A stretch of DNA of 64,000 nucleotides from Candidatus Hydrogenedentota bacterium (GTDB lineage: Bacteria; Hydrogenedentota; Hydrogenedentia; Hydrogenedentales; JAEUWI01): positions 1 through 64,000 of the forward strand of contig JAHBVV010000004.1 of the NCBI GenBank assembly GCA_019637335.1. Reading direction: 5' to 3'. Position 1 is the stretch's first letter. Each line of letters begins with the position of its first letter. The notes below the pieces were generated by a model, which was given only the letters and a program-made list of their open reading frames with translations, was not told the origin of the DNA and made no database searches. A program made the translations under genes and the position numbers. Of this stretch, positions 3,941 to 61,108 are shown piece by piece.

Positions 3941-4178
3941 GGGGCCCCCTGGGGCCCGGGGCGCCGGGAAGGGAGAGCCGACCGCCGCCGGGAGAGCGCG
4001 GGGGACCGGGCCGCGCGGCCGGCAGCGACCCACGGCCCGCCGGGGCGGACTCCACCCCGTAGCGCGATGCGCGACCCCAACCCGGGTCGCACCGCCGGCA
4101 ATGGCGCGCCTCCGAGACGGCCCGGCTCCATCGCCAGGTTGGGCCCTGGCCGGAGCGGCGTCAGTATCCCAACCTCAG

Positions 4179-4290
4179 CACCGCCAGGGAGCACCCCGGA
4201 ACCCGCGGCCATCCCGCCAATCCACCGGCACACCGCCAGGGGGCACCCCGGAACCCGCGGCCATCCCGCCAATCCACCGGCACACCGCCA
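4179..4290. repeat. 52-bp direct repeat, two copies plus a partial
   Basis: A unit beginning CACCGCCAGGG recurs at 4179 and 4231 and partly at 4283, an exact 52-base period. The two full copies differ at one visible base. It lies in a gene-free GC-rich stretch and reads as proline-rich nonsense when translated. Confidence 0.85.
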
Positions 4291-5152: not shown

Positions 5153-6571
5153 CTACGCGCGGATGCTGTCGGCGGCGATGTGTTCCCGCTTCCCGGGCCC
5201 CATCCGCTCATCCACGCCCAGGGCCGCCAGCATGGTGTTGTACGCATCGAGGCCTTCCCTGCCCACGTCCAGGATTTCATTGGTCTTGAATCGCCCGCCG
5301 GCGCCCGTGATCGCGTGGAAGACGCCAGAGAGCTCGCGTTTGGCGTCGGAATGCCGCCCGTCGCCGGATTCGGTGGAAATGGTGAAGAGCGAATTCTCCA
5401 GGATGCTCTTGCCATTGGCTTCTTGCGCCTCGGGGCCGTCGAGGCGCTGGAGGAAATAGGCCACCTCCCGCATTTTCATGTGGGCGTGGGCGCGCAGGGC
5501 TTCGTTCCTCTTCTCCGGATTGAACTTGTGCCACCATTCGTGGCTGCACCCGTTCGCGCCGGACGCGTTCAGCTCCGCCGCGTCGTCGAACTGGTAGATC
5601 CGGCGCCCGCCGTATTCGTAGTCCCCTTTTACCCGCAGGCGCTCGCCCGCGGCCAGGAAGGTGATCGATCCAAACCGCGTCCGGTCCATCTGGATGGCCA
5701 TCGCGTACAGATCCGCCAGCAGACGCCATTCCGCCACGAGCTCATCCAGCGCCATGTCGATGCCTTCGCCGCCGGGGTCCGCCTCCCCGCCGTGGGCGAG
5801 GATGGAGCGCGGCGGAAGCGCCGGCCCCCCGCCTTCGGGGGCCTCCGCGGCGTAGGCGCGCTGCTCGAACTCCCGGATGCGATCGAGGTGATCGGCCACG
5901 CGGGATTTCGAGGCGGCGCCGAGGGGCGAGTTCGCGCCCGTGTAGTACTGGTACTGGCCCACGACGGCATCGAGCACGCTGCGCTTGATGCGATCCTCGC
6001 GGGCGTCGCCGCCGCCACCGAGGGTCCCGAATACCCGCTCGAAGACATCGCGCGGGCGCTCCTGCATCGCGGCCGCGGCGGTGCCGTCGTGGTTGAAGCT
6101 GTGTACGAAGCGCCCGAGCCGATCGCGGCGGAAGAAGGTGCCCGCAACCAGCGTCGGAACCATCCCCGGAGGCAGCCCGTCCGGGTAGTGCGCCTTGCGG
6201 ACCATCTGGTCGATCGAGGGGCCGCCCGCCTTGGCGGTGCCGTCGGGCGGCTCCGCCGTGAAGGCGCCGGTCGCCCCGTCATAGTGGGCGTTGATGCCGG
6301 CTTCATCGCAGCGGATCTGGTCGATGTTCCGCATGATGAGGAGCTTTTCCTTCAACGGCGCGAGCGGCTCGAGCACGCCCTCAAAGCCCTCGGTTTGCAG
6401 GGGCGCGGGGATGCCGAGGCCGAAAAAGACGTTAAAGGCGCGCACCGGAATTTCCGGCGCGGTTGTCGCGGAGGCGCGGGAGACCGCCATTTCCTCCAGA
6501 AACGGCAGGCCGACGGCGATGCCGCCTAGGCCCCGTAACATTGTGCGGCGGCTGATGGGCTTGCGTTTCAC
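5153..6571 (-). CDS. DUF1552 secreted protein
   Basis: A 472-residue protein starting at a GTG that overlaps the stop of the upstream gene as GTGA, with GGAGGA just before it, so the two are translationally coupled. The N-terminus has SRRTMLRGLGG and a hydrophobic stretch, a twin-arginine-type signal as in other DUF1552 proteins. The family is expanded in planctomycetes and relatives and is nearly always encoded next to a DUF1592/DUF1588 protein, as here. Its biochemical function is not established; an export-linked role in polymer breakdown is only an inference. An upstream extension of the frame to 6739 lies inside the neighbour and is not used. Confidence 0.85.
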   Translation of the reverse strand: MKRKPISRRTMLRGLGGIAVGLPFLEEMAVSRASATTAPEIPVRAFNVFFGLGIPAPLQTEGFEGVLEPLAPLKEKLLIMRNIDQIRCDEAGINAHYDGATGAFTAEPPDGTAKAGGPSIDQMVRKAHYPDGLPPGMVPTLVAGTFFRRDRLGRFVHSFNHDGTAAAAMQERPRDVFERVFGTLGGGGDAREDRIKRSVLDAVVGQYQYYTGANSPLGAASKSRVADHLDRIREFEQRAYAAEAPEGGGPALPPRSILAHGGEADPGGEGIDMALDELVAEWRLLADLYAMAIQMDRTRFGSITFLAAGERLRVKGDYEYGGRRIYQFDDAAELNASGANGCSHEWWHKFNPEKRNEALRAHAHMKMREVAYFLQRLDGPEAQEANGKSILENSLFTISTESGDGRHSDAKRELSGVFHAITGAGGRFKTNEILDVGREGLDAYNTMLAALGVDERMGPGKREHIAADSIRA

Positions 6572-10196: not shown

Positions 10197-10357
10197 CAGT
10201 TGGCAGTTGGCAGTTGGCAGTTGGCAGTTGACAGTTGGCAGTTGGCAGTTGACAGTTGACAGTTGACAGTTGACAGTTGACAGTTGACAGTTGATAGTTG
10301 ATAGTTGATAGTTGATAGTTGATAGTTGATAGTTGGCAGTTGGCAGTTGGTAGTTGA
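10197..10357. repeat. Heptamer tandem array, 23 units of YAGTTGR
   Basis: Units of seven bases (CAGTTGG, CAGTTGA, TAGTTGA) run without interruption or phase change from 10197 to 10357. Variants are grouped in blocks, as expected from slippage and local homogenisation. The array fills the leader immediately before the SDR start codon at 10191. It resembles the short heptameric tandem repeats long known in cyanobacteria. Related arrays are at 18158 and 40856. Confidence 0.97.
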
Positions 10358-18157: not shown

Positions 18158-18300
18158 CAGTTGACAGTTGACAGTTGACAGTTGACAGTTGACAGTTGAC
18201 AGCAGGGGCGGCAGGGGCGGCAGGGGCGGCAGGGGCGGCAGGGACTACAGGGACTACAGGGACTGTAGGGGTGGCGGAGACGGTAGGGGTGGTAGGGGCG
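18158..18300. repeat. Heptamer array running into a nonamer array
   Basis: Six CAGTTGA units (18158-18199) are followed from 18202 by 11 units of nine bases: GCAGGGGCG x4, then GCAGGGACT/ACAGGGACT, then GTAGGGGTG and GTAGGGGCG types. The nonamer changes gradually along the array. It lies 56 bases beyond the stop of the pseudopeptidase gene. Confidence 0.95.
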
Positions 18301-18355
18301 GGGGCTTGAGCGGTGGTCTTTCGGGGGGCCAGGGCATGGAGGGACGGGGTTGTGT

Positions 18356-34696: not shown

Positions 34697-34805
34697 GCAA
34701 GCATTCGCCCAGTCCAGTTGACTGCTTTCCATTATCCGCTTTCATGCGCAATCGGTCAAGACGCCGGCGCTAAAGCGAATAGCCAGGTTGAGTCGGCCGA
34801 TGGCC

Positions 34806-34883
34806 CGCCGGCCTGCGGCGCGCCCAGGACGCCGTTGACGCCCACGGAGAATTCACGCCATTGTTCGCGCCGCGACTCCAGCA
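34806..34883 (-). pseudogene. Duplicated remnant of the PadR regulator gene
   Basis: These 78 bases match 37046-37123, which encodes the ARREQWREFSVGVNGVLGAP-type segment of the PadR gene at 36900-37376, with only two differences. Homology stops abruptly on both sides. It is a recent partial duplication or what is left of a second PadR gene. The rest of 34697-35070 holds no gene. Confidence 0.8.
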
Positions 34884-34930
34884 GGGGAATTCGAGTGCCC
34901 GTGGCCACGTGCGCTTATTGCTGCATACGT

Positions 34931-35070: not shown

Positions 35071-36903
35071 TCAGTTCGCCGCGCCCGCCTCCTCCTTCGG
35101 CCCCAACACGAGCCAGAGGGGACGCCGATGTTCATTTTCGATCGTCTTCGCTTCGGCGGACACGACACCAATAGTGTTTTTGTAGTCCTTGCCAGCGTAC
35201 TTCCACTTCAGCAGTATCGCCTTTGGAAGGGCGTTTGTATTCCGCAGTGATTCCGTAATGTCAATGAACTGCCACCTCCCTCCTTCCTGTAAGATTTCAC
35301 GCCCAAGTACATCGATGGGCTCATCCTGGAGTAAGAGGTTCTCGCCCCCCTCGCCGTAGACTTTCGACAGTTCGTCGAATCGCGGCCATATCATGTCGAA
35401 TACATCGTTCTGAACAGGCCACGCTTCCAGTGGATTGTTGAACTCACTCAGACGCCCACCGCTCACGTAAAATGCCAACACAACACGCTTGGCCCCGTCC
35501 GCAACGGTAGGTACGGGCGCGGGAAGAGCAAACAGGGGACTCCAGACGAAATTGATCGCTGTCTGTTCACCTTGAATTTCAATGTAGCGGAGTTGATCGT
35601 TACTGGCAGAGAGTTCCTCAAAAACCTGTGACCGGTCCACGTCCGATGTAAAATATCCGCGCGGGTCGATATGGCCCGTCGTCGATTCGGGCACGGGCGT
35701 GGTCGAGGTAACTCGGCGCTCCGGAAACGCTCGCCGGATCGCCGAAGCGAGTTCCTTCGTGACACTCAACCCCTGCGCGGTCATCTGGTCGAGGAGTGCC
35801 CAGTCCTGCAACTCGTCCTTAAGCTCGGCGGCCAACATAGCGCGGTAACGCCGCCCCGCGCCGTTGCCGAGCAGCTCGAACGAGATCTTGTAGCGTTCGT
35901 CCGCGCTCCAGCGGCCGCCGGTATTGCGAATGAGCACGGCCGTGTGGCTATTGGCGGGCGCGCCGGAGATGCGCACCGGATACTTCGCCAGGGACACGTA
36001 GTCGCTGACCACCAACGGCACCTCTCTCCGCGGGGGCAATGCCGAATGGCTTCGGGGCGACACCAGGTATTCCTGGAGAGCTTTACCGGAATCTGGACCC
36101 CAAAAGGACTCCTGGGCGCCTTGCCAAACATCGTCGCCATGTTGCCATTCGGACTCAAGCCGCACACCGAGCACTTGCTTCTCGGCGTCGCGGCTCACAG
36201 GCGACTCGAATTCGATCTGTACTTCTTCGGGGACAACATCGGGGGTGACAATCAACGTTTTTACTGGCGCCACACCCGCGAATATCGTGGCTTCTCTATA
36301 CAGGGTCAAGCCAGACTGAGGGTCTTTACATTCGACCTTGTACACCCCGGGCTGCATGGGGCCAAAGCGTAGGATCCCGGAATCGTCTGCCCGGCGGTCA
36401 ACCCGGCCGCCTCGTTCGTCGCCAAACATCTGACCGTAACACGTCACCTCGACCCCGCTCGCCAACGGCCCGTCCTCGCTGCCGCGCCGGAACTCCAGTT
36501 CCAGCGTGGCCAAGCGCGCTTCGCCCGCGTTCTGCTGCGACAATGCCACCAGCACCGCCTCGTTCGTCGCGCCGAATTGCCGGAGCATGAGCCCCATGAA
36601 CGCCACCCCCGCGATCCCCGCCACCGCCAGCACAACCATGACCCCCGTTTGTATCCACTCGCGCATGATAATCTCCCTCATATGATCCCACCACAGCTTC
36701 CGCGCTATGGCATCGGGATCGCCGAATTGTTCCAGGACGCGGCGTCGCACCGATTCCTCATCGTCGTTGCCCCGCTCCAACTCCCGTTCCGCCGCGCACG
36801 CGAGGTGGTCCGCGATCTCGTCCAGAATGTCCTGCCGCAGCCCGCCCGGCTCGCGCGGATGGCGCGCGGGGAAGGCTTTGTCGGGGTCCTTGTTCCAGTT
36901 CAT
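35071..36903 (-). CDS. Permease-prefix-domain membrane protein, PadR partner
   Basis: A 610-residue protein. Residues 1-75 form a charged helical 'permease prefix' domain (LRQDILDEIADHLACAAERE, then RVLEQFGDPDAIARKLWWDHM), usually found ahead of ABC permeases and next to PadR regulators. One membrane helix follows (about 86-108), then a ~500-residue outer region without a recognised domain. No permease helices follow, unlike the usual MacB-like fusion. Its ATG overlaps the PadR stop as ATGA, so PadR probably controls it. Function unknown. Confidence 0.7.
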   Translation of the reverse strand: MNWNKDPDKAFPARHPREPGGLRQDILDEIADHLACAAERELERGNDDEESVRRRVLEQFGDPDAIARKLWWDHMREIIMREWIQTGVMVVLAVAGIAGVAFMGLMLRQFGATNEAVLVALSQQNAGEARLATLELEFRRGSEDGPLASGVEVTCYGQMFGDERGGRVDRRADDSGILRFGPMQPGVYKVECKDPQSGLTLYREATIFAGVAPVKTLIVTPDVVPEEVQIEFESPVSRDAEKQVLGVRLESEWQHGDDVWQGAQESFWGPDSGKALQEYLVSPRSHSALPPRREVPLVVSDYVSLAKYPVRISGAPANSHTAVLIRNTGGRWSADERYKISFELLGNGAGRRYRAMLAAELKDELQDWALLDQMTAQGLSVTKELASAIRRAFPERRVTSTTPVPESTTGHIDPRGYFTSDVDRSQVFEELSASNDQLRYIEIQGEQTAINFVWSPLFALPAPVPTVADGAKRVVLAFYVSGGRLSEFNNPLEAWPVQNDVFDMIWPRFDELSKVYGEGGENLLLQDEPIDVLGREILQEGGRWQFIDITESLRNTNALPKAILLKWKYAGKDYKNTIGVVSAEAKTIENEHRRPLWLVLGPKEEAGAAN

Positions 36904-37376
36904 AGCCGCGTACCTGTCGCTGTGGACGGGGTGGACGGGGTGGACGGGGTGGACGGGGTGGACAGGGTGGACAGGGTGGACAGGGTGGACAGGGTGGACA
37001 GGGTGGACAGGGTGGACAAAAGAGCGCCGTGGGCGCTCATGAGTCCGCCGGCCAGCGGCGCGCCCAGGACACCGTTGACGCCCACGGAGAATTCACGCCA
37101 TTGTTCGCGCCGCGACTCCAGCAGCATCTGGCCCTCGGGCGTGATGCGGTAGAACTTCCGGCGGCAACCCGGCCGGTGCAGCACCCAATACGACGCGAGC
37201 AGTCCCTCCCGCTCCATGCGGTGGAGCACGGGGTACAGCGCGCCTTCCAGCAGTTCGAATTGACCGCGAGACCGCTCGATCACCTGCTGTGAGACGTCGT
37301 AGCCCGTGGCATCGCCCGGGCTGATGGCGTGGAGAATCAACATCTCCGTCATGTCGCTTTCAAACGTATTTTTCAT
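36900..37376 (-). CDS. PadR-family transcriptional regulator with a repeat-encoded tail
   Basis: A 158-residue protein. Residues about 8-95 are a PadR winged helix (ILHAISPGDATGYDVSQQV, then ELLEGALYPVLHRMEREGLL, and YRITPEGQMLLESRREQW). From about residue 117 the chain becomes eleven (L/P)ST triplets encoded by the nonamer array 36922-37020, then TATGTRL. The core is intact, so DNA binding should persist; the tail is probably a tolerated expansion. It likely represses itself and the downstream gene. Confidence 0.88.
   Translation of the reverse strand: MKNTFESDMTEMLILHAISPGDATGYDVSQQVIERSRGQFELLEGALYPVLHRMEREGLLASYWVLHRPGCRRKFYRITPEGQMLLESRREQWREFSVGVNGVLGAPLAGGLMSAHGALLSTLSTLSTLSTLSTLSTLSTPSTPSTPSTPSTATGTRL
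36922..37020. repeat. Nonamer tandem array inside PadR
   Basis: GTGGACGGG x4 (from 36922), GTGGACAGG x6 (from 36958) and a last GTGGACAAA (37012-37020): eleven units with no phase slip. The same nonamer core makes up the intergenic array at 40903-41055. Confidence 0.97.
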
Positions 37377-40855: not shown

Positions 40856-41055
40856 CAGTTGACAGTTGGCTTTAGGCTTTAGGCTTTAGGCTGTAGGCTG
40901 TAGTGGACGTGGTGGACGCAGTGGACAGAGTGGACAGAGTGGACAGAGTGGACAGAGTGGACAAAGTGGACAGAGTGGACAAAGTGGACATAGTAGACAT
41001 AGTAGACATAGTGTACATAGTGTACATAGTGTACATAGTGTACATAGTGGACGGT
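40856..41055. repeat. Heptamer array running into a drifting nonamer array
   Basis: CAGTTGA and CAGTTGG, then CTTTAGG x3 and CTGTAGG with a partial unit (40856-40902, all in one seven-base phase), then 17 nonamers (40903-41055). The nonamer drifts stepwise: GTGGACAGA and GTGGACAAA, GTGGACATA, GTAGACATA, then GTGTACATA x4, ending GTGGACGGT. It lies between the sialidase start and the fabI end. Confidence 0.97.
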
Positions 41056-41096
41056 TTCCACCTCGTGCAACCTGTCCACTTCGTCCACAAAAGGCA

Positions 41097-46714: not shown

Positions 46715-47210
46715 GCGCCTTTCGGCGCTGAACACAGCCGGGACGGCTGTGCCACTTTCTTTTCGAGGTGATTTTGGTGGGGTCGGGGGATCTCGTAGGG
46801 GTGGGCTCGATTTGCCGCGGACTTGCTGAAGGTCCGCCGTGGCGGAATTGGCCGGGATCCTGTCGCGCCTTTCGGCGCGTTGGACAGCCGGGACGGCTAT
46901 CCTACATTTGCGCCTTTCGGCGCCTGGACAGCCGGGACGGCTATCCTACATTTGCGCCTTCGGCGCCCGGACAGCCGGGACGGCTATCCTACATTTGCGC
47001 CTTTGGCGCCCGGACAGCCGGGACGGCTATCCTACATTTGCGCCTTCGGCGCCTGGACAGCCGGGACGGCTATCCTACATTTGCGCCTTTCGGCGCGTTG
47101 GACAGCCGGGACGGCTATCCTACATTTGCGCCTTCGGCGCCTGGACAGCCGGGACGGCTATCCTACATTTGCGCCTTTCGGCGCGTTGGACAGCCGGAAC
47201 GGGAATCCGG
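46715..47210. repeat. Double-hairpin repeat: one solo copy and an eight-copy array
   Basis: Each unit carries hairpin GCGCC-TTTC-GGCGC (loop TTTC, TTC or TTT) followed by GGACAGCCGGGACGGCT, a second small hairpin, and ATCCTACATTT. Array units start at 46865, 46910, 46954, 46997, 47040, 47083, 47128 and 47171 (43-45 base spacing); the last is decayed. A solo relative lies at 46715-46760. It fills the space between two convergent genes. Further copies are at 60925 and 61009. Confidence 0.93.
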
Positions 47211-54355: not shown

Positions 54356-54639
54356 TGGGGTACAGCCTCGCACGTTGCCTGGATGGGGCCGGGGCGCGGT
54401 ATGTGGTTGGAGGCGGGCGCGCGTGCGGGGATTGGGGTTGCGGGTGCGCGGCAGTCCCCCCGGCCGCGCTTCGAGGTTGGCGGCGCGCGGCGCGCGGGTG
54501 TCCCCGGTGGCGCGGGTGTGCCTGATTTGGTGTGCTGCCGCCGCCATTGTTTCCGATGTCCTCCTGCCCAGAGGGATGCGCCGGGGCCGACCCCGACTGC
54601 GGGGTCAGTATAGCCCGGTATGGGTGTTTTGGCAAGGGG

Positions 54640-55790
54640 GTGGTTTTGCCGCTCGTGTGGGGTGGTGTTGGTGGTGTTGGGCTGGTGTTGCTCCTGGCAC
54701 ACGAACGCGCTGGGGCGCGATCGCGTGGCACGGGTTGACGCCCGGGGCCGGGATGGGTGGCGACGGGACTGGCACGGGCAAGCCCTTGCGGGCTTGTCCG
54801 TGGCGCGCCGGGAGGGGCGCTTGGTGTGTGGGGTGTGTGGGTGTGTGGAGCCGCTCGTGTGGGGTGGTGTTGGTGGTGGTGGGCTGGTGTTGCTCCTGGC
54901 ACACGAACGCGTTGGGGCGCGATCGCGTGGCACGGGCAAGCCCTTGCGGGCTTGACCGTGGCACGCCGGGAGGGTGGAGGGCTGGTGTGTGGGGTGTGTG
55001 GGGTGTGTGGGGTGTGTGGAGCCGCTCGTGTGGGGTGGTTTCGCCGCTCGTGTGGGGTGGTGTTGGTGGTGTTGGGCTGGTGTTGCTCCTGGCACACGAA
55101 CGCGCTGGGGCGCGATCGCGTGGCACGGGTTGACGGGCGGGGCTGGGATGGGTGGCGACGGGACTGGCACGGGCAAGCCCTTGCGGGCTTGTCCGTGGCA
55201 CGCCGGGAGGGTGGAAGGCTGGAGTGTGGGGTGTGGGGTGTATGGAGCCGCTCGTGTGGGGTGGTGTTGGTGGTGGTGGGCTGGTGTTGCTCCTGGCACA
55301 CGAACGCGCTGGGGCGCGATCGCGTGGCACGGGTTGACGGGCGGGCTTGTCCGTGGCGCGCCGGGAGGGAGACGTGGGCTGGAGCGTGGGGTGTGTGGGT
55401 GTGTGGAGCCGCTCGTGTGGGGTGGTGTTGGCGGTGGTGGGTGTGCGTTGCTCCTGGCACACGAACGCGCTGGGGCGCGATCGCGTGGCACGGGTTGACG
55501 GGCGGGGCTGGGGTGGGTGGCGACGGGACTGGCACGGGCAAGCCCTTGCGGGCTTGTCCGTGGCGCGCCGGGAGGGAGACGTGGGCTGGAGCGTGGGGTG
55601 TGTGGGTGTGTGGAGCCGCTCGTGTGGGGTGGTGTTGGTGGTGGTGGGCTGGTGTTGCTCCTGGCACACGAACGCGCTGGGGCGCGATCGCGTGGCACGT
55701 AGGTTGACGGGTGGCGGTGGGATTGGCACGGGCAAGCCCTTGTGGGCTTGTCCGTGGCACGCCGGAGGGGGATTGGGGTGTGGAGCGTTT
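54640..55790. repeat. Array of ~200-bp composite repeat units with two hairpins
   Basis: Six copies of CACACGA-A-CGCGC-TGGG-GCGCG-A-TCGCGTG start at 54698, 54900, 55093, 55297, 55458 and 55665. Between most of them lies a second hairpin, CAAGCCC-TTGC-GGGCTTG, and a G/T-rich segment beginning CCGCTCGTGTGGGGTGG. Spacing is 161-207 bases. Long frames on both strands here are translated repeats (His/Pro/Thr- or Gly/Val/Trp-rich) and not genes. 54356-54640 has G-rich DNA with no gene. Confidence 0.9.
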
Positions 55791-60894: not shown

Positions 60895-61060
60895 GTCGCG
60901 GGCAGGAATGCCCGCGATCCTAGTGCGCCTTTCGGCGCGGTGGACAGCCGGGACGGCTATCCTACATTGGCTGCAGACGGGAATGCCCGCGATCCTAGTG
61001 CGCCTTTCGGCGCGGTGGACAGCCGGGACGGCTATCCTACATTTGCCGCGGGAATGCTCG
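60895..61060. repeat. Double-hairpin repeat, two copies with longer spacer
   Basis: Two copies of the 46865-type unit (GCGCCTTTCGGCGC at 60925 and 61009, then GGACAGCCGGGACGGCT and ATCCTACATT), here inside an 84-base unit that adds GGAATGCCCGCGATCCTAG. Confidence 0.9.
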
Positions 61061-61108
61061 CGATCCTGATTTGGCGGTCCGGGGCGCGACGGCGGGGGTG
61101 TGTTCCGC

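Follow-up and report, generated by a model that had tools for sequence, protein, structure and literature searches.

Bacterial minisatellites and VNTRs consist of head-to-tail units arranged in runs, the unit being a multiple of three bases in genes. The REP/RAYT systems (PMC2817692) comprise dispersed palindromes and a protein whose gene has copies of the repeat on its flanks; the two appear to have coevolved, the number of repeat copies is tied to the matching gene, and the RAYTs are tyrosine transposases related to IS200/IS605. The intervening sequence (IVS) of 23S rRNA genes carries an S23 open reading frame within an inverted-repeat stem-loop, with mobility proposed and not shown (PMC4990558). 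A likeness between Avd, the accessory protein of DGRs, and the family PF05635 has been noted (PMC10053308).

The repeats found in the window (the whole 64,000-nucleotide stretch of DNA analysed here) and in related genomes resemble REP/RAYT (PMC2817692) in that they flank the gene of a TIGR04258 protein, the protein subfamily goes with the motif and copy number goes with the gene. They differ from it in that the protein is an S23/Avd-like four-helix bundle in which no transposase model was found, and in the row of hexamers at exact 9-bp steps. They share an S23-fold protein and an inverted-repeat stem with the IVS, a four-helix open reading frame at one locus (L262) having a GTGGAC arm on one side and a GTCCAC arm on the other, but unlike the IVS, which sits in 23S rRNA genes (PMC4990558), the elements are genome-wide and have nonamer arms and a protein with a suffix helix; insertion in a 23S rRNA gene was not found, no rRNA family scoring over threshold in the 27 loci searched with Rfam. 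The likeness to Avd is one of fold, in a comparison where such Z scores can arise by chance for helical bundles, and, unlike in DGRs, the changes between spacers are not limited to a single base. The 9-bp units in head-to-tail runs are shared with minisatellites and VNTRs, whereas a hexamer common to unrelated loci and phyla, a two-armed form in relatives and a partner gene family are not. No description of the nonamer palindrome or of a TIGR04258 partner was found in the open-access literature, broader matches being judged by title and start of abstract among those listed, and the repeat-plus-protein system looks undescribed.

The array in the padR gene of the window is probably a translated, one-armed and expanded copy of this dispersed, REP/RAYT-like family of nonamer palindromes with a TIGR04258 partner. 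The features concerned are as follows.

18202 to 18301, plus strand: array of AGGGAC/AGGGGC nonamers, a second type, which also flanks the genome's other TIGR04258 gene (TRF, sequence).
34805 to 34884, minus strand: 80-bp direct repeat of 3' coding sequence of padR, located past the HAAS gene (sequence comparison).
35071 to 36903, minus strand: gene downstream of padR, 610 aa, HAAS domain at 26.9 bits against a cut-off of 27 (open reading frame, domain search).
36900 to 36903, minus strand: ATGA, overlap of the padR stop and the start of the next gene, the array keeping the frame (open reading frame, sequence).
36900 to 37376, minus strand: padR-family regulator gene with an array-encoded C-terminal tail, 158 aa (open reading frame; PF03551, E 1.1e-18).
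36922 to 37020, plus strand (the GTGGAC strand): 11 nonamers GTGGAC-NNN, of which padR reads the GTCCAC strand as S-T-L/P (TRF, hexamer count).
37022 to 37038, minus strand: perfect hairpin GAGCGCC-CAC-GGCGCTC, then TTTTGTCCAC in padR sense, directly before the array (sequence, by eye).
37045 to 37124, minus strand: 3' part of the padR body, duplicated at 34805 to 34884 with 97.5% identity (sequence comparison).
40903 to 41052, plus strand: 17-unit non-coding array of the same GTGGAC family, the left arm (TRF, hexamer count).
41074 to 41088, minus strand: short opposing two-unit arm, GTCCACttcGTCCAC, a remnant of the palindromic layout (sequence).

The padR open reading frame, which matches PF03551 over residues 14-87 and so belongs to the PadR family, encloses the array in frame and translates it as ALLSTLSTLSTLSTLSTLSTLSTPSTPSTPSTPSTATGTRL. 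TRF placed 10.8 copies of a 9-base period at 36922-37018, with 98% matches and a score of 166, and a count at 9-bp steps gave 11 GTGGAC hexamers at 36922-37017, with the spacers GGG four times, AGG six times and AAA in that order. The frame remains open through all units to the TGA, which overlaps the ATG of the next gene. The original prediction had held that eleven nonamers encode an (L/P)ST tail on PadR, which TRF, hexamer count and translation confirm, and that its length could vary between cells without frameshift, which is right as regards the frame, a 9-bp unit being unable to shift it. It had also placed the padR nonamer in a non-coding array, and this was recovered at 40903-41052 between called genes, six of the 17 units being GTAGAC or GTGTAC variants. 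An array copy arriving between padR and the HAAS gene may have stayed open in frame, because its unit is nine bases long and its S-T-L/P frame is free of stops, so that PadR would have gained its tail with the ATGA overlap kept. The hairpin at 37022-37038, inside the padR frame, is terminator-like to judge from its bases.

The window holds both array types, GTGGAC and AGGGAC/AGGGGC, together with several other repeats. Heptamer arrays of (CAGTTGA)n lie at 10197-10357 and 18158-18202, the second adjoining the array of AGGGAC-type nonamers. A further heptamer array, of GGCTTTA at 40868-40903, adjoins the nonamer array that starts at 40903. Repeats of about 43 bp with two hairpin-like parts, GCGCCTTTCGGCGC and GGACAGCCGGGACGGCT, are common to 46865-47202 and 60905-61067, and a long tandem repeat at 54637-55711 has a period of 395 and nested periods, with GGTGTGTGG units inside.

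The comparison of PadR orthologues proposed with the original prediction found a tail of 11 units here, seven degenerate units in the 72% identical orthologue of a congener (G001) and none in eight further homologues. Tandem 9-bp units whose number differs between relatives at an orthologous site are what is expected of a minisatellite or VNTR. Past the conserved V(N/D)G(V/I)LG there are 53 residues in the present PadR and 40 in that of G001, in which the same place reads, at 9-bp steps, GTCTAT, GTCCAT, GTCCAC, GTCCAT, GTCCAT, a hairpin unit, ATCCAC and CTCCAC; the eight others (from G002, G003, G005, G009, G028, G035, G049 and G055) end 6-9 residues past that motif. Since G001 has a degenerate array at the corresponding position, entry of the array into padR probably predates the split of G001 and the present species, its length having changed since. 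The 80-bp padR duplicate was not found in a 19-kb stretch of G001. A functional tail, whose S-T-L/P length tunes the regulator, would fit a frame kept open through 11 units with the ATGA overlap retained, and an open array-derived tail in the congener as well. It is nonetheless very unlikely, as the eight shorter homologues do without it, and array-encoded stretches in four unrelated proteins of the same genome point to tolerance and not to a role specific to padR. The tail is probably flexible, and would be tolerated as a flexible linker.

The pattern (GTGGACNNN)4, allowing at most one mismatch, matched 246 + 157 = 403 times in the 7.16-Mb genome, and the arrays are therefore not due to chance, since the reversed control pattern matched 0 times. 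Reading of the window and 20 further genome stretches, 15 of them chosen for arrays, yielded 21 arrays of at least three units. Five fall within genes whose products have recognised domains: one is the padR tail, one lies in the N-terminal part of a DUF4153 protein, and the other three are in interdomain linkers, namely those of a GH43/AXE1/pectate-lyase fusion, of a PSCyt/PSD1 protein and of a PfaC-like synthase. Four of the five read S-T-x and one G-P-S. The remaining arrays are outside called genes, begin at a stop codon (L071) or are in an open reading frame without support (L080), those in L074 and L075 lying ahead of the apparent true start. The original prediction was right that the nonamer sits in coding and non-coding DNA alike; its local minisatellite expansion stands as regards the array and the in-frame tail, but the repeat is neither private to padR nor a plain slippage tract, and the account was incomplete in that the padR array is probably one copy of a palindromic family that crosses phyla and is linked to TIGR04258. 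Two further coding sites were considered as carrying orthologous arrays and dropped, the G001 matches in C61 and C45 having other flanks and not being orthologues. Direct duplications flanking arrays were likewise dropped as a general feature, being confined among 22 array entries to padR and the array-gene-array unit formed on contig C28 by a class A TIGR04258 gene and its arrays; five other entries had only local tandem or diverged repeats and the remainder nothing. The C28 duplication (L270, about 4034-4119 and 5264-5349) is about 71-86 bp long, 91-94% identical, corresponds to the 3' end of the neighbouring gene and resembles the 80-bp duplication at padR.

In the congener G002, matches pair as a GTGGAC arm, a short loop and a GTCCAC arm, and this two-armed element was present in 20/20 loci, which were picked mostly for matches on both strands. 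Of 79 distinct elements from G002 and named genomes, chosen by exact hexamers, 28 have exactly four units per arm, and the loops are most often 10-12 bases long. Their spacers are near random (1.93, 1.95 and 1.84 bits of 2) and hardly complementary between arms (195/636 or 30.7%, against 27.5% in shuffles), with 25/500 shuffles as high, a weak trend at best; neighbouring spacers of one arm match in 397/1044 cases (38%), against 27.8% expected from composition. The basic unit reads (GTGGAC-NNN)3-5, short loop, (GTCCAC-NNN)3-5. A DnaA-box reading, suggested by the likeness of TGTCCACA to that box, was dropped, the bases after the hexamer being free.

Four-unit matches with at most one mismatch occur in 33/118 other genomes, and an exact palindrome of 2+2 units in 10/68 genomes of the phylum; the present genome has none, though the array at 40903 keeps its two-unit opposing arm behind variant units. 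Searches of named genomes gave 89 stretches with an exact 3+3 palindrome, distributed over many phyla and 80 of them available as loci. Record titles name Hydrogenedentota, Lentisphaerae, Planctomycetota, Chlorobaculum, Desulfobacterales, Chlamydiia, Caldilineaceae, Anaerolineae, Acidobacteriales, Verrucomicrobia and others; the viral contigs searched had no such palindrome. The named strains Chlorobaculum thiosulfatiphilum DSM 249, Chlorobaculum sp. 24CR and Oligosphaera ethanolica DSM 24202 carry the element, so that bench tests are possible. Target-site duplications at 82 palindromes did not exceed chance, and Rfam gave no family match at an element in 27 loci. Away from the elements, Rfam matched Acido-Lenti-1 over its gathering score at 4164-4208 on the minus strand of L114 in G002, RNase P in L125 and L134, and tRNA in L157.

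Dispersed palindromic repeats, as in REP/RAYT, are found in the relatives, and in this lineage the arms would have lost the two-armed form and grown by unit duplication into minisatellites. In Oligosphaera ethanolica (L185, 6327 onward) an exact run of 34 GTCCAC units faces a six-unit GTGGAC arm beside a TIGR04258 gene of suffix class A, like the expansion in the present genome. An ordinary minisatellite, in which replication slippage enlarged a GTGGAC seed at padR and other loci without a partner protein, would account for that run, for the likeness of adjacent spacers and for the runs of identical units seen here (GGG four times and then AGG six times; GTGTAC four times), as local duplication gives. 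It leaves unexplained the two-armed form with unlike spacers, the occurrence across phyla and the subfamily-specific motifs at TIGR04258 genes, and is unlikely as a full explanation; slippage is probably right for the last step, the growth of arms in this lineage.

The constraint on the hexamers was also considered at sites with shared neighbours. Downstream of lysA in Chlorobaculum thiosulfatiphilum and a Chlorobiaceae MAG (L322 and L328), hexamers are alike at 42/42 positions, spacers at 5/15 and the loop at 6/13 (Fisher 2.7e-9), a comparison in which hexamer identity is largely built in, both loci having been found via the exact hexamer pattern. In 30 loci from the family of Chlorobaculum taken at this site without a hexamer filter and read by eye, the element was intact in two, and the remainder held a shorter, decayed, ATGGAC-type or AAGGAC/AGGGAC-type form, a plain hairpin, another insert or nothing. 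The lysA sites may be read as showing hexamers that are maintained or restored at some places as the spacers drift. The loci L114 of G002 and L182 of G003 have alike neighbours on both sides and two-armed elements whose spacers and loops differ. A different insert, mutually similar in three genomes of the family (L339, L340 and L342), also occurs downstream of lysA.

Such sites bear on the idea that the palindromes are terminator or RNA-processing hairpins, bound by TIGR04258 in a regulatory role only and without mobility. Palindrome and plain hairpin alternate between genomes after lysA, the folding of six elements is much more stable than that of shuffled sequences (z -6.1 to -13.4), and both GTGGAC arrays of the window adjoin a hairpin with a T run, as judged by eye. 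A terminator needs pairing, however, and not one hexamer at 9-bp steps with spacers that hardly pair, and coding sequence also contains arrays and two-armed elements, which leaves this explanation unlikely. A repeat family with a protein partner remains the preferred reading.

The proposed partner is the TIGR04258 four-helix-bundle protein, of the S23, 23S-rRNA-intervening-sequence and Avd kind, which would recognise the hexamers as DNA or as a hairpin, repeat and protein perhaps spreading or being maintained together by analogy with REPs and RAYTs. Some palindromes sit in the linker of a gene whose N-terminus matches TIGR02436 and whose C-terminus matches TIGR04258. Of the 80 palindrome loci, 12 hold a suffix gene, in every case of class A, and 68 are without a suffix within the fetched DNA. 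TIGR04258 was detected in 30/32 palindrome-bearing genomes searched (29 over cut-off) and in 0/14 controls; it was not found in the other two, and a third had only a sub-cut-off match. Within the phylum it is present in 42/68 genomes (41 over cut-off), comprising 10/10 palindrome-bearing genomes against 32/58 others (Fisher p 0.010). Class A goes with at least ten array matches (15/29 against 5/39, p 0.00095) and with any array match (20/29 against 12/39, p 0.003), and all these tests take the genomes as independent and so ignore their relatedness. The association is imperfect: 9/29 class A genomes have no four-unit array, and 12/32 array genomes, including G022 (97 matches), G050 (36), G059 (20), G031 (19) and G013 (13), are off the class A list, which was made by hand, left out G022 (borderline) and G013 (truncated class A-like suffix) and counted in the borderline G029 and G054.

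The present genome has two TIGR04258 genes, on contigs C28 (78.1 bits) and C23 (69.1 bits, cut-off 40). The class A gene at C28:44462-45049 is flanked on both sides by GTCCAC arrays, and the C23 gene, weakly of class B (score 98 against 94 for class C), stands between GTCCCT arrays whose lengths reach 14 and 27 units.

The class A protein was modelled with a pLDDT of 93 as a helical bundle, the suffix comprising the last long helix (141-174) and a further helix (177-191). TIGR02436 matched with E 2.5e-7, and Pfam 23S_rRNA_IVP (PF05635) gave 25.6-33.7 bits in the five members scanned (cut-off 33.8). Foldseek gave no match at E <= 0.001, and the fold assignment rests on VIA-align of Foldseek candidates, with Z of 16.1 to 2gsc and 14.1 to 2rld (S23 family), followed by the DGR Avd chains 8ub8 (12.3) and 4dwl (11.5); of these, 2gsc and by a small margin 2rld lie above what helical bundles can reach by chance, and the rest do not. 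The sole sequence-profile match was 2gsc (E 0.05). The IS200/IS605-like transposase domain of RAYTs was not found, no transposase model matching the five TIGR04258 proteins scanned with Pfam, and the nearest solved folds were those of S23.

Hexamers at 9-bp steps around TIGR04258 genes, collected without a preset motif, differ by suffix subfamily, the suffix being located in 58/60 loci. Five motif families were grouped after these hexamers had been seen, and one of the families was near 52 of the 79 TIGR04258 genes, matching the subfamily but for one, with none near the remaining 27.

Class A suffix genes: 26 with TGGAC, 0 with another motif, 10 with none.
Class B suffix genes: 6 with AGGAC, 9 with GGGAC, 14 with none.
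Divergent class B suffix genes: 4 with CGGAC, 1 with none.
Class C suffix genes: 6 with CGGATC, 1 with GGGAC, 2 with none.

The commonest hexamer of L263, GACGTA, falls outside the five families. On a quick protein tree from which the linker was left out, and in which 8/64 inner branches are strongly supported, the motif label changes four times over 48 labelled rows, and 200 shuffles never gave fewer than 18 changes. The TAGGAC palindrome occurs in 6/68 genomes, five of which have TIGR04258 (the exception being G043), and its reversed control matched alone in two other genomes. As in REP/RAYT, the gene is mostly flanked by the same repeats, or carries them in its linker, and the motif matches the subfamily; this agreement could have come about through arrays riding along with their gene.

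More tentatively, TIGR04258 proteins of many phyla, which are S23/Avd-like, may each recognise a nonamer palindrome of their own (GTGGAC, ATGGAC, TAGGAC, TGGGAC, TCGGAC or CGGATC) and spread or maintain it, perhaps with a borrowed host enzyme, as a counterpart of REP/RAYT without a transposase. The linker that precedes the last long helix would then consist of copies in the protein's own gene, and arms growing unchecked would turn into minisatellites entering other genes in frame, as in padR. If true, this would assign both a function and a target to TIGR04258, which is known here by model name only, tie the S23/IVS/Avd fold to genome-wide repeats and illustrate how non-coding repeats can end up in proteins as in-frame, S/T-rich linkers.

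A C-terminal CPxCG-type segment was also observed in the suffix proteins of L224, L225, L231, L232, L235, L238, L256 and L267, as well as L261 and L263, that of the class C member L224 matching Zn_ribbon_Top1 just under the cut-off.
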